Shown: positions 6,123 to 24,590 of the stretch, piece by piece
Position numbering within the stretch: position 1 is the first letter of the stretch
How the letters are laid out: each line of letters starts with the position of its first letter
Origin: an uncultured Eubacteriales bacterium
Lineage (GTDB): Bacteria > Bacillota > Clostridia > Peptostreptococcales > Anaerovoracaceae
Length of the DNA stretch: 40,878 bases
NCBI GenBank assembly: GCA_902786855.1
Contig: CADAEH010000020.1
Coordinates: forward strand, 1-40,878
Direction: 5' to 3'
The notes under the pieces: generated by a model
Told to the model about the DNA's origin: nothing
Databases searched by the model: none
The model's input: only the letters and a program-made list of their open reading frames with translations
Position numbers and translations under genes: made by a program

Positions 6123-7055
6123 CTATTCGTTTTCAGCAGAGTCCCCGGCTTCATCTGCCGTATCGTCAGCGGCGTCTTCTGCTGCATCGGCTGTATCATC
6201 AGCTGTGTCTTCCGCTGCATCGGCTGTATCATCAGCTGCGTCTTCTGCTGCATCAGCGGCTTCATCTGCCGCGTCATCAGCATCGTCGGCAGCTTCTTTC
6301 TCTGCCTCCTTCTCAAGGTCCTCAAGGTATTTCTTGGCGTCCTTATATGTCATCTCGACGGACTGAAGTTCTTCATCTCCGACTGAAAGTGTTGCTTTAA
6401 CATCAGCTGAAAAAGCTCTTGTCTGCGGTTTGATGTTAGTAAGGAAATATGCAGCGATCTGCTTCACCTGTTCTTCGCCGTCTTCCCCTTCATAATACTC
6501 TTTTACCATCTTCGCTATGTTCTCATCGCTTCCGTCAACCGTCATTACGATACTCATGGAGTTGCCGTCAGCAGTGATATTTGCTGTGGTATATGCATCC
6601 AGCTGCATGTTTCCGTAGGCTTCCTCGCCTCCGTTCTTTTCGATGTACTTTGCAATTGTTGCCGGTTTTGAAAAATAATTATAGCCAATAACAAAGGCAA
6701 ACATCGCGACCACTACTCCGAAAATAAGAAGTGCGATCAGTGCATTATTCGGCCTTGATTTTTTTTCTTCTATTTTGTTAGCAGCTTTACGCGCTGCCTT
6801 GGCTTCTCTTCTTTCAGCCTTTTTTATACGCTTGCTGCTTACCTTAACAGGAGCTGTCTCAATTTGCTCTGTTTCTTCTGTTTCTTCTGTTTCTTCTGTT
6901 TCTTCTGTTTCTTCTGTTTCTTCTTCAGACACAGTCAGTTCTGCATCATCGCTCTCTGTTGCATCTGTTTCTTCAGTCTCTGCCGTTTCAGTTATTTTTT
7001 CCAGTTCTTCTGCTTCTGTTTCTTCTATGATCGTTTTCTTTTCGTTTTCCATCAA
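6123..7055 (-). CDS. One-pass membrane protein with acidic repeat tails, function unknown
   Basis: I do not recognise a family. The 310-residue protein has an N-terminal cytoplasmic tail (about 1-100) rich in Glu and Thr, including a run of EET triplets, then a basic Lys/Arg/Ala stretch (KAERREAKAARKAANK), one membrane helix at about 105-125 (ALIALLIFGVVVAMFAFVIGY), and an external domain of about 130 residues with the feel of a small lipoprotein-like fold. The C-terminus (about 260-310) is a low-complexity Ala/Asp/Glu tail with an 11-residue period (ADAAEDAADDT and variants), consistent with an extended amphipathic or hendecad coil. Both tails are encoded by tandem DNA repeats. The terminator follows immediately. 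It may be a cell-envelope protein; this is inference. Confidence 0.8.
   Translation of the reverse strand: MMENEKKTIIEETEAEELEKITETAETEETDATESDDAELTVSEEETEETEETEETEETEETEQIETAPVKVSSKRIKKAERREAKAARKAANKIEEKKSRPNNALIALLIFGVVVAMFAFVIGYNYFSKPATIAKYIEKNGGEEAYGNMQLDAYTTANITADGNSMSIVMTVDGSDENIAKMVKEYYEGEDGEEQVKQIAAYFLTNIKPQTRAFSADVKATLSVGDEELQSVEMTYKDAKKYLEDLEKEAEKEAADDADDAADEAADAAEDAADDTADAAEDTADDTADAAEDAADDTADEAGDSAENE
6131..6290. repeat. Imperfect 33-bp tandem repeat coding the Ala/Asp tail
   Basis: Copies of a roughly 33-bp unit (plus strand starts GTCTTCTGCTGCATCGGCTG) repeat about three times in near-identical form, with degenerate flanking copies. They code for an 11-residue period in the C-terminal tail of the 6123-7055 protein. 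Unit length is a multiple of three, so copy changes keep the frame. Confidence 0.75.
6871..6924. repeat. Six perfect copies of a 9-bp tandem repeat
   Basis: GTTTCTTCT is repeated six times head to tail on the plus strand. On the coding minus strand this gives the Glu-Glu-Thr repeat in the N-terminal tail of the 6123-7055 protein. It is a likely site of slipped-strand length change without loss of frame. Confidence 0.95.
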
Positions 7056-20541: not shown

Positions 20542-21396
20542 CTAACTGACCGGCAAAGCAACGTATGTCGATCCTGTGCCGCTCTGTATCTCTCCGCTGC
20601 CGTCTATTTTATAACCTTCAGGTACACTGATGACTTTGACCTTCAGGTCTTCAGGCTTGTCGGTAAATACATCACATGTTCCCTTTTCTCCGGTAGTATA
20701 TGTCTCTGTTCCGGACTCTGAAGTGACAGTGAATTCAACACCCGGGATAACTTTTTTGCCTGAATATGCAGTGAATGTGTAGTAACCTAGCTGCCTTTCC
20801 TCATATCCATCGCCCATAAATGTCGTGATGATCTTTTCAAATGTCTCTGCATCAGGAATAGACCCTACGCGGTACATCCCGATCTTGCCGTTTCGGTCTA
20901 TGATCAGAGTAGTAGGGTAAGCATTCGTTTTGATATCTCCAAGGCTGTCATTTCCTTTGGCTAAAGGGAACGCAAAGCCGTGTGATTCAGCATATTCCTT
21001 TACGGATTTCTCATCATCAAGGACATCAATGTCGATAGCGATCATACCCAGCTTGTCCTGATATTTCTGGTACACAGTATCCATCTCAGGGAACTCTCTT
21101 TCACATGGTCCGCACCATGTCGCGAAAAGGACAACTGCCAGAGCTTCTTTGCCCTCGAGCAGTCCGCTCATCGTAACTGTCTGACCATCAGTAGTAGTCA
21201 CCTTAAAATCAGCCGCAGTCTGGCCTGTCAATGTATCTTTGTGAGCGCTTTCTTTGAATTCTTTGATATCTTTCTCGTGGGATTTATACCAGAAGAACGC
21301 TACTGCTGCTGCAGCCAGCACTATCACTAATAAGACTATAAGGCCCACTTTAAGGCATCCACCTTTATTCTTTTCCCCTTTTTCAGTATTGCTCAT
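20542..21396 (-). CDS. Membrane-tethered TlpA-like thioredoxin with C-terminal beta domain
   Basis: A 284-residue protein with a short cytoplasmic Lys-rich tail, one membrane helix at about 16-37 and an extracytoplasmic redoxin domain (about 55-195) holding FATWCGPCEREFPEMD, active Cys pair at 95 and 98, plus the cis-Pro segment AYPTTLIIDRNGKIGMYRVG. The last 80 residues (GYYTFTAYSGKKVIPGVEFTVTSESG, then TYTTGEKGTCDVFTD) resemble the Cna-B/SpaA prealbumin-like fold seen in Gram-positive surface proteins, an unusual addition. It probably reduces disulfides outside the membrane. No CcdA-type electron donor is adjacent. The ATG follows AAAGGATG. Confidence 0.9.
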   Translation of the reverse strand: MSNTEKGEKNKGGCLKVGLIVLLVIVLAAAAVAFFWYKSHEKDIKEFKESAHKDTLTGQTAADFKVTTTDGQTVTMSGLLEGKEALAVVLFATWCGPCEREFPEMDTVYQKYQDKLGMIAIDIDVLDDEKSVKEYAESHGFAFPLAKGNDSLGDIKTNAYPTTLIIDRNGKIGMYRVGSIPDAETFEKIITTFMGDGYEERQLGYYTFTAYSGKKVIPGVEFTVTSESGTETYTTGEKGTCDVFTDKPEDLKVKVISVPEGYKIDGSGEIQSGTGSTYVALPVS

Positions 21397-22876: not shown

Positions 22877-24403
22877 CTATTTCATCTTTGTAATGGCAGT
22901 GCCCATACCTGAAATATCCCCGATCAGGATCACACCGACAAGCTTTCCGTGATCATAGTAGTACTTTGAATACGTTTTTTTCACATCGTCCTTGATCTGT
23001 TCCGATCTGAATTTTCTTTCCGGATCCTTGCCATTGGTACCCAGCGCGAAGACACTGGTGTTCATCGCTTCGATCACCAGCGAGCTGCCGATAGGTTTGT
23101 ACTCAACATCATCACCTGCGGCATTCGCACCTGCTATCCTGCCTGTTTCAACAGCCTGAGCCCAGAATGCCTGTGCCTGACCATTGACACTGCAGCAGTC
23201 GCCCGCCGTATATACATCAGCGACATTTGTCCTCATGCTGCTGTCCGCCAGCACCCATTTATCCACTGCGATCCCGCTGTCTTCAGCGACTTTGGTATAA
23301 GGTCTCATTCCGGTCGACATAATGACAAGCTGAGCTTCGTATTCTGTACCATCATCAAGTACTACAGCATTTTCAGTGATCTCTGCGATCTTTACTCCGG
23401 TGACCACGTCAACACCTGCACCAATGCAGAGTTCCTTGAGCATTTCAGAGGCAGTATCATCAAGCTGTCTCGGCAGAAGCCCTGGCGCTGTTTCAAGAAC
23501 AGTCACTTCAAGTCCGCCTTCCTTCAGGCCCCATGCACCTTCGAGACCCATAACACCTCCGCCGATACAAACTGCCTTAGATGCGCTGCGGTCTGCTATT
23601 ATCTGCTTGACCCGGTCAGTATCGGAAATGCTTCTGACCGAAACAACGTGCCCGAGATCCGCTCCCTTGATCGGCGGTACGAAGCAGTAAGCTCCGAGAG
23701 CATATATCAGTTTGTCATATCCGAGCTGACCTTCACTTCCGTCAGAATAGCGAAGGCTGACAGTTTTCGCAGCAATATCGACTCCGAGAACTACTGTTTC
23801 AGGAACAAAGTTGATGTCATTCTTCTCATACCATTCAGGACCTTCCATTACGAGTCCATTATAGCCAAAATCTCTGACTATGCCTTTCGTAAGCATCGGC
23901 CTGTTATATGGCAGATGAGACTCCTGAGTAATGATTGTAACAGTCGCTGTGTGATTGCGTATCCTGATTGCTTCCGCTGCGCTCTTAGCTGCAGGTCCGC
24001 CGCCGAGGATCACGAATACCTCATCTGTATCTTTTCTGAATGAAGTCTCTTTTTTCTCTACAGATATAAAATTCTCAGGACCGACACCGCATACCGGACA
24101 AGCTACAGCACCCTCCTCGAATTCAGCTCCGCATACGAGGCATTTGACCAATTTACCTCCATCTCCGGTTGAAGCCGGCTGGATCCTCGAAGCCAGATCA
24201 TCTTCTGTAGCAGGTTCAAAATATTCCGGACCGACATTACATATCGGGCAGGTATCAATTCCTTCCTCAAATACAGCTCCGCAGAAGGTGCATTTCACCA
24301 TTCCGACAGGCTCAAAACATTCAGAGCTGACTCCGCATACAGGGCATTCTTCCGTGCCTTCAGGGAGATAAGCTCCGCAAATCGTACATTTTACTTTAGC
24401 CAT
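22877..24403 (-). CDS. FAD-dependent NAD(P)H oxidoreductase with three N-terminal rubredoxin-like domains
   Basis: A 508-residue fusion. Residues 1-118 hold three modules with the pattern C-x2-C-x10-C-x2-C (Cys 6/9/20/23, 38/41/52/55, 88/91/102/105), each of the form KCxxCGAxxEEGxxxCPxCxVGPExF, close to the rubredoxin-like domain of rubrerythrins. Residues 127-508 are a pyridine-nucleotide-disulfide oxidoreductase-like flavoprotein: FAD site VFVILGGGPAAKSAAEAIR, NAD(P)H site AVCIGGGVMGLEGAWGLKEGG and the FAD motif VYTAGDCC. It resembles NADH:rubredoxin oxidoreductases and probably moves electrons from NAD(P)H to its own iron sites and then to an oxygen- or peroxide-reducing partner. Ribosome site AGGAGG. 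No rubrerythrin gene lies in the window. Confidence 0.9.
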   Translation of the reverse strand: MAKVKCTICGAYLPEGTEECPVCGVSSECFEPVGMVKCTFCGAVFEEGIDTCPICNVGPEYFEPATEDDLASRIQPASTGDGGKLVKCLVCGAEFEEGAVACPVCGVGPENFISVEKKETSFRKDTDEVFVILGGGPAAKSAAEAIRIRNHTATVTIITQESHLPYNRPMLTKGIVRDFGYNGLVMEGPEWYEKNDINFVPETVVLGVDIAAKTVSLRYSDGSEGQLGYDKLIYALGAYCFVPPIKGADLGHVVSVRSISDTDRVKQIIADRSASKAVCIGGGVMGLEGAWGLKEGGLEVTVLETAPGLLPRQLDDTASEMLKELCIGAGVDVVTGVKIAEITENAVVLDDGTEYEAQLVIMSTGMRPYTKVAEDSGIAVDKWVLADSSMRTNVADVYTAGDCCSVNGQAQAFWAQAVETGRIAGANAAGDDVEYKPIGSSLVIEAMNTSVFALGTNGKDPERKFRSEQIKDDVKKTYSKYYYDHGKLVGVILIGDISGMGTAITKMK

Positions 24404-24426
24404 ATGTGCCTCCTGTATTTCACTAA

Positions 24427-24462
24427 GAGCATGTGATAATCTAGCTTGATTATCACATGCTC
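24427..24462. repeat. Perfect 15-bp inverted repeat in the oxidoreductase leader
   Basis: GAGCATGTGATAATC and GATTATCACATGCTC are separated by 6 bases, 24 bp before the oxidoreductase start. There is no T-run directly after it on the minus strand (TTAGTG follows), so it may be an operator or a leader hairpin rather than a terminator. Confidence 0.6.
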
Positions 24463-24590
24463 CGATTATTCGGTCAAGACGGTCAAGTGTTCTTTTGTGT
24501 CTTTTGATATAGCGATGCTTGTCAGAGTATAGGCCCGATCTTGCACCATCAGAGTCTGTCGAGTGACAGCATGCCCGTCATACATCAAAA

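Follow-up and report, generated by a model that had tools for sequence, protein, structure and literature searches.

The question raised by this locus is why a flavoprotein of a gut anaerobe should carry three rubredoxin (Rd) modules in a row, and what those modules might serve. The window, meaning the whole 40,878 bp stretch analysed (contig CADAEH010000020.1, from an uncultured Eubacteriales bacterium), contains a 508 aa open reading frame with an ATG start at 22877–24403 on the minus strand, which also bears the modules, motifs and sites located below. The frame matches exactly the interval singled out in a first-pass annotation, which had described three Rd-like Cys modules fused in front of an NAD(P)H flavoprotein. 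That description was borne out for the modules: a C-x2-C-x10-C-P-x-C motif occurs in module 1 (Cys 6-9-20-23; 24335–24388), module 2 (Cys 38-41-52-55, with Asn56 after the fourth Cys; 24239–24292) and module 3 (Cys 88-91-102-105; 24089–24142). The whole gene can be described as a triple short-spaced Rd array followed by an NAD(P)H:rubredoxin oxidoreductase (NROR)-like flavoprotein, and an RBS-like AGGAGG was read by eye upstream of the ATG (24409–24414).

Of 20,000 shuffles of the protein, 10 contained at least one such Cys motif, and no shuffle contained more than one. The Pfam model RUBY_RBDX scored 40.1 bits over the whole protein, above its cut-off of 26.5, and covered three stretches, in agreement with the short, rubrerythrin-type Cys spacing noted earlier; the single modules of two relatives, L033 (25.3) and L016 (21.5), fall below the same cut-off. 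The surroundings of the modules had been called near-identical, which overstated the case, as pairwise identity is 53–60% over 30 residues. The spacing of 10 between Cys pairs is found here and in some class F flavodiiron proteins (FDPs) of other genera, and is 12 in others. In an AlphaFold2 model (mean pLDDT 86.2) there are three small units of three strands each, and the linker between modules 2 and 3 is of low confidence at aa 72–82 (pLDDT <50). When the modules alone were used as a Foldseek query, no match was returned at E≤0.001; the top five matches were PolD chains, in regions that we take to be the PolD zinc motifs, and C. difficile rubrerythrin lay below them (1.3 Å over 37 columns, E 0.04). 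Several zinc-ribbon Pfam models also matched the protein weakly, every one listed being below its own cut-off.

The FAD and NAD(P)H sites of the earlier description are also present, as GGGPA (aa 134–138; 23990–24004) and GGGVMG (aa 281–286; 23546–23563), and lie within a Pyr_redox_2 match (aa 131–414; 23162–24013; E 3.9e-52) that spans both binding halves. It is followed by a Rubredoxin-NAD reductase C-terminal domain (PF18267; aa 446–498; 22910–23068) that passes its cut-off narrowly (27.2 versus 25.9 bits) and scores 34.4–36.8 in the relatives L033, L030 and L016. The best PDB sequence match to this half is 3klj, named C. acetobutylicum NADH:rubredoxin oxidoreductase in the Foldseek listing. 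With the whole model, 3klj ranked 20th (TMt 0.84, probability 1.00), below persulfide, ferredoxin and other flavoprotein reductases. In the alignment, the stretch after the FAD motif is LPYNRPML here and LPYYRPRL in 3klj, and no Cys is aligned with the one that 6pfz (deposited as NADH oxidase NoxA-3) has in RCGLPYY; nor is there a CxxxxC pair like that of lipoamide dehydrogenase. NADH oxidase families likewise match this domain. By its motifs and matches, then, the flavoprotein half is a NirB/NROR-type FAD/NAD(P)H domain, and NADH rather than NADPH would be its substrate by analogy with C. difficile FDP_F. In its own genome the protein had one further match, a lipoamide-dehydrogenase-like protein with GGTCLNRGCIP.

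When the protein was searched against 100 genomes and the open reading frames were inspected, its closest relatives were found to have four architectures. Three modules plus NROR make up proteins of 507–523 aa as called, two modules plus NROR occur in one genome (G023), and one module plus NROR gives proteins of 424–471 aa, plus one cut fragment. The fourth form, of 777–890 aa, has an FDP core before one module and NROR and is a class F FDP; in one of these, L016, Pfam confirmed ODP, flavodoxin, Pyr_redox_2 and Rubredoxin_C. An array-profile search of 48 genomes of the genus matched 34, each once, with 10 triple, 1 double and 23 single forms, the last comprising 10 class F fusions and 13 core-less proteins (G040 being counted among these); 14 of the 48 were without any form, a soft figure because the assemblies are 59–99% complete. 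Over the shared part, the Rd+NROR unit is 67–71% identical to the C-terminal half of the ten class F FDPs of the genus. No Pfam match to ODP or flavodoxin was found in the window protein up to E 10, and no remnant of the diiron/flavodoxin core was seen by eye in the 58 open in-frame residues upstream of the ATG (frame 566). A class F-like protein elsewhere in the family (L120, 355–2757, plus strand) has no ODP match at E≤0.001 and is without an HxExDH diiron motif or a rubredoxin motif; it is apparently a fusion that has degenerated or been repurposed.

Among the genomes searched, the triple array before NROR occurs in this genus only: it was found in 9 of 394 order genomes (own included), and the own genome was alone in having it among 398 phylum and 391 class genomes, arrays with other spacings being under-counted in all three samples because the profile is tuned to the 10-residue spacing. 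The triple-Rd NROR is thus lineage-restricted in the genomes searched, and it is conserved. All 12 Cys are invariant in the ten triple forms, the window protein included. Nei–Gojobori dN/dS among triple forms was 0.045 for module 1, 0.041 for module 2, 0.020 for module 3 (34, 37 and 44 of 45 pairs used, respectively) and 0.182 for the linker (19 of 20 equal-length pairs), values that are rough because mean dS is 0.88–1.37.

The modules nevertheless differ. Compared with the single modules of relatives, module 3 is the most similar (mean identity 0.738), followed by module 2 (0.677) and module 1, the most diverged (0.581). Such an order would be expected had modules 1 and 2 arisen as the duplicates. 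The Gly that follows the fourth Cys is replaced in module 2 of all ten triple forms (N in two, M in one, T in two, S in four and C in one) and retained in every other module tallied, namely 14 core-less singles (including L046, a 3'-cut fragment from G040), 14 class F singles, the two modules of the G023 protein, and modules 1 and 3 throughout the triple forms. We take this position to be that of Gly43 in C. pasteurianum rubredoxin, where replacement shifts the redox potential; PDB entry titles include mutant rubredoxin structures G10A and G43A. Because of this correspondence, it is possible that the potential of module 2 has been retuned.

In an NROR tree of 42 rows, the triple forms make up one clade (support 100/100) and the two-module form is its sister (91/81). 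The first module of the latter is 0.62, 0.54 and 0.673 identical to modules 1, 2 and 3, respectively. The NROR trees were built without the fragment L046, the duplicate or truncated loci L050–L067 and the second open reading frame of L113 (588–1925). The genus FDPs are placed among the core-less forms (forks 87/93 and 90/95), and a single clean history of core loss was set aside because the tree mixes the two. However, a single clade of core-less forms was not rejected (p-AU 0.386, with four long rows, L119–L122, left out), so one loss of the core is not rejected and further losses are possible. In a tree of FDP cores, the class F cores of the genus group with those of the family's other genera (96/93), apart from the FDP of the own genome. 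As the genus cores group in this way, the class F fusion is likely to be the older state in the genus, which would make the core-less forms derivatives that lost the core. Loss of the core, then multiplication of the modules, is the order that the trees support. The statement that the modules are fused in front of a flavoprotein tells only half the story, as the array apparently arose after an O2-reducing core had been lost.

Tandem arrays of short Rds are also found outside the genus. A search of 391 class genomes with a two-Rd profile (E≤1e-12) and frame inspection found them in nine, the own genome making ten, which is a lower bound. They occur in the same class on two other flavoprotein families, flavin reductases and FAD_binding_2 proteins. 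Three Rds precede a flavin reductase in G891 (L212, 1012–1956, minus strand), and two do so in G1165 (L208, 1006–1743, minus strand), G995, G1081 and G975. Three Rds precede an FAD_binding_2 protein in G966, from another family (L214, 417–2453, plus strand; the second Cys pair of its third Rd is CARC), and a truncated frame in G1026 (L205) looks by eye like the same arrangement. In the phylum sample, two or three tandem short Rds precede an Hrb-like flavin-reductase domain (L204, 343–1152, minus strand). Two tandem N-terminal Rds are carried by a reverse rubrerythrin in G1112 (L247, 332–1039, minus strand). Domains were assigned by Pfam for L212, L208, L214, L246 and L247, and for L204 and L202 from the phylum sample, and by eye for G995, G1081, G975 and G1026. 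Two other candidates were rejected: G879 has one Rd on a rubrerythrin and its match crosses stops, and in G816 one full Rd is accompanied by half a motif. By eye, the genes adjoining those in L208 and L206 resemble acetolactate synthase.

A single example from another family of the class, G888, has a 660 aa frame with the order Rd-Rd-NROR-rubrerythrin-Rd (L246, 372–2354, minus strand). The stretch contains no N and the frame no stop. Identity of its product to the window protein is 32% over 472 residues, and to the own-genome rubrerythrin 37% over 183. It is possibly a self-sufficient NADH peroxidase.

Gene context was less informative. When 16 window genes were compared with 18 loci, and the ten triple-form loci were compared gene by gene within 5 kb, no conserved operon with oxygen-defence genes was found, and no neighbour within 5 kb was present in more than four of the ten. 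The commonest neighbour is an esterase-like gene (L004, L007, L010 and L011). The window shares a 124 aa frame with L005 and L006 and an HTH gene with L007, and the sensor-kinase/regulator pair that adjoins the gene in L009 is about 10 kb away in the window. Context was set aside as a clue to function. Two other genes of the window may be recorded here. Two genes downstream, 20542–21396 (minus strand) encodes a TlpA-like thioredoxin whose N-terminal part includes a hydrophobic stretch and whose C-terminal domain is SpaA-like. The product of 6123–7055 (minus strand), judged by eye, has a hydrophobic segment between a Glu/Thr-rich N-terminal and an Ala/Asp/Glu-rich C-terminal low-complexity stretch.

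Upstream of the gene, a promoter-like TTGACC-17-GATAAT with TG before the -10 (24449–24477) is a consensus match only, as the pattern occurs at five sites in the 5 kb scanned versus 7.4 expected by chance. It is overlapped by a 36 bp palindrome (24427–24462; GAGCATGTGATAATC...) consisting of a perfect 15 bp inverted repeat around a 6 bp centre. No comparable palindrome was found at the other 27 gene starts of relatives examined. Allowing up to two mismatches, the pattern occurs at 21 places in the own genome versus five for a reversed control; this one alone has no mismatch and one other has a single mismatch. By coordinates, the FDP, reverse rubrerythrin and rubrerythrin genes of that genome all lie more than 1 kb from every one of the 21 places. 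A regulator site shared with those genes was set aside; a small regulon is possible.

Candidate partners are encoded in the own assembly, which is 87% complete. An FDP of class A size (390 aa), with an ODP match and no flavodoxin model at E≤0.001, lies beside a desulfoferrodoxin (L123), and the genome also encodes a reverse rubrerythrin (L124), a rubrerythrin (L125) and a stand-alone rubredoxin. The 61 genomes searched for FDPs include nine of the triple-form ones, the own genus having ten in total, and each of these nine has an ODP match over the cut-off in a separate frame (partial in G026). A separate FDP does not single out the triple form, because class F genomes of the genus usually have one too. 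The idea that the array replaces a missing free rubredoxin was rejected, since the own genome has a PF00301 rubredoxin, as do 53 of the 61 genomes.

In published biochemistry, C. difficile FDP_F has a short FeCys4 Rd near −100 to −130 mV and an FAD at −250 mV, and its isolated Rd+NROR half reduces O2 at 0.03 per s versus 16 per s for the whole enzyme (PMC6033852). The T. vaginalis enzyme is likewise self-sufficient, and cryo-EM did not resolve its Rd and NROR; C. acetobutylicum NROR on its own forms H2O2 but, with rubredoxin and FDP, catalyses an H2O-forming reaction (PMC9364112). The E. coli Rd domain and its NROR, with NADH, can reduce C. difficile FdpA and both reverse rubrerythrins (PMC7482061), whose natural donors, like those of the class A FDP, are stated to be unknown in C. 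difficile (PMC7482061, PMC11481553). In trans, neither the Rd-NROR part nor full FdpF passed electrons to C. difficile FdpA in the experiments described there, and a model docks Rd 8.2 Å from FAD (PMC11481553). No published account of a core-less multi-Rd NROR was found in the literature searched, which was accessible in part and lies mostly outside subscription journals.

Taking these observations together, we think it probable, with considerable room for doubt, that the protein is an NADH-dependent rubredoxin reductase with a tethered three-site Fe(Cys)4 relay that feeds separate diiron enzymes, derived from a class F FDP without its core. Directly seen are the architecture, its conservation, the family history, the presence of partner genes and the rubrerythrin fusion elsewhere; the iron in the sites, the order of electron flow and the partners we infer. 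NADH would reduce the FAD of the NROR domain, and the FAD would in turn reduce its neighbour, module 3, which corresponds to the one Rd that relatives have. From there, modules 2 and 1 on the far side of the flexible linker would carry single electrons out to separate diiron enzymes, with reverse rubrerythrin, rubrerythrin, the class A-type FDP and perhaps superoxide reductase as recipients. A class F FDP would have lost its O2-reducing core, and multiplication of its Rd would have produced an arm reaching partners in place of that core. The first-pass annotation had offered an electron wire or a metal store; the wire fits descent from class F FDPs and the redox activity of the single Rd in C. 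difficile, and nothing supporting a store was found. Its suggested link to oxygen or peroxide defence, put forward there as inference, has gained two supports, class F descent and the Rd-Rd-NROR-rubrerythrin fusion.

Of the published results, the failure with FdpA in trans weighs most against this reading in its simplest form. It may be that one docked Rd is unable to supply a separate protein, and that further modules on the far side of a flexible linker could do so; the extra modules may be the answer to that failure. The failure also fits an unlikely alternative, in which the enzyme is the same but the array feeds another reductase (e.g. a flavin-dependent or Fe-S enzyme of fermentation) and not an enzyme acting on O2 or peroxide. 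Lack of linkage to oxygen-defence genes and the triple array on an FAD_binding_2 protein in another family of the class are consistent with this, but the ancestry of the protein in an O2 reductase and the naturally occurring chain that joins a double-Rd NROR to rubrerythrin point back to O2 or peroxide. Also against the tethered relay is the stand-alone rubredoxin of the own genome, with which a tethered array is not obviously needed. In another alternative, the Rd next to the flavin does the work, modules 1 and 2 mainly raising the local Rd concentration or being neutral duplicates, with no ordered relay. Module 2 may have drifted, given the loss of its Gly in all ten triple forms, and the one-module protein is the commonest core-less form (13 of 48 genomes). 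However, invariance of all Cys and dN/dS of about 0.04 in modules 1 and 2 argue against this, and we regard the absence of a relay as unlikely.

Two further explanations would remove the partner or the redox role. A zinc-ribbon or metal-storage array could account for the weak zinc-ribbon Pfam matches and for the PolD chains, matched in their presumed zinc motifs, at the top of the module-only search, but RUBY_RBDX passes its Pfam cut-off and the zinc-ribbon models listed do not, the modules are all part of one polypeptide with a rubredoxin-reductase domain, and in C. difficile the homologous domain holds an FeCys4 centre that is redox-active (PMC6033852). We regard such an array as very unlikely. 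About as unlikely is a self-sufficient NADH oxidase or peroxidase, forming H2O2 or H2O without a partner. The matches to NADH oxidase families and the H2O2-forming oxidase activity reported for C. acetobutylicum NROR alone (PMC9364112) would suit it; the absent diiron core, the lack of a Cys aligned with that of 6pfz and the slow O2 reduction by the C. difficile Rd-NROR piece (PMC6033852) weigh against it.

The tethered-relay reading can be extended, doubtfully, to a wider one. Tandem short-Rd arrays may be a recurrent relay arm of anaerobic O2 and peroxide defence that evolved independently on NROR, Hrb-type flavin reductases, FAD_binding_2 flavoproteins and reverse rubrerythrins. In the present lineage, the O2-reducing enzyme would have shed its core to become a general electron hub, with module 2 retuned through loss of its Gly to provide a potential step. 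If true, this would show, for certain anaerobes, which type of donor serves class A FDPs and reverse rubrerythrins. One genus holds the full NADH:O2 fusion, core-less relatives with one, two and three Rds, and separate FDPs and rubrerythrins, so that one can ask what the Rd does, why a single docked Rd failed to supply a separate protein and whether delivery returns with extra Rds. The rubrerythrin fusion in L246 predicts a partner. The architecture is uncommon, the evolutionary series makes the question of the electron donor testable, and as no membrane segment was noticed in these proteins, direct testing is feasible.

Among known systems, Moorella Hrb, which we take to have the PF01613 flavin-reductase fold, likewise has an Rd fused to an NAD(P)H flavoprotein, but of an unrelated fold. 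It consists of an FMN dehydrogenase and an Rd and is a donor to a flavodiiron protein (PMC12288474). AlkG of Pseudomonas putida GPo1 likewise has several rubredoxins per chain serving a rubredoxin reductase, but there are two, joined by a 70-residue linker, with a separate reductase, AlkT, and a membrane hydroxylase as partner (PMC3604635). C. acetobutylicum NROR (3klj) shares the fold, domains and YxRP motif with the window protein, and neither has an active-site Cys in the aligned stretch; it is described as using a separate rubredoxin (PMC9364112), whereas three are covalently attached here. Class F FDPs (C. difficile CD1623/FdpF and T. vaginalis FDPF1-3) likewise have a short-spaced Rd directly before a NirB/NROR FAD/NADH domain, but the window protein has neither their β-lactamase diiron core nor their flavodoxin, and has three Rds instead of one.

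Class H FDPs are defined by an FDP core with two Rds and NROR, and that of Syntrophomonas wolfei reportedly has five domains, with two short Rds on one chain. Like the window protein, it thus combines NROR with multiple short Rds, but it keeps the diiron core, which the window protein is without. A five-domain FDP from another member of the Bacillota (L202, 620–3238, plus strand) is class H-like, with the order core-Rd-NROR-Rd; its second Rd follows NROR, whereas all three Rds of the window protein precede it. Because of the S. wolfei protein, the attachment of several Rds to NROR in one chain is probably no novelty as such. What looks new here is the presence of three tandem Rds without the core, together with the series of forms in the genus.
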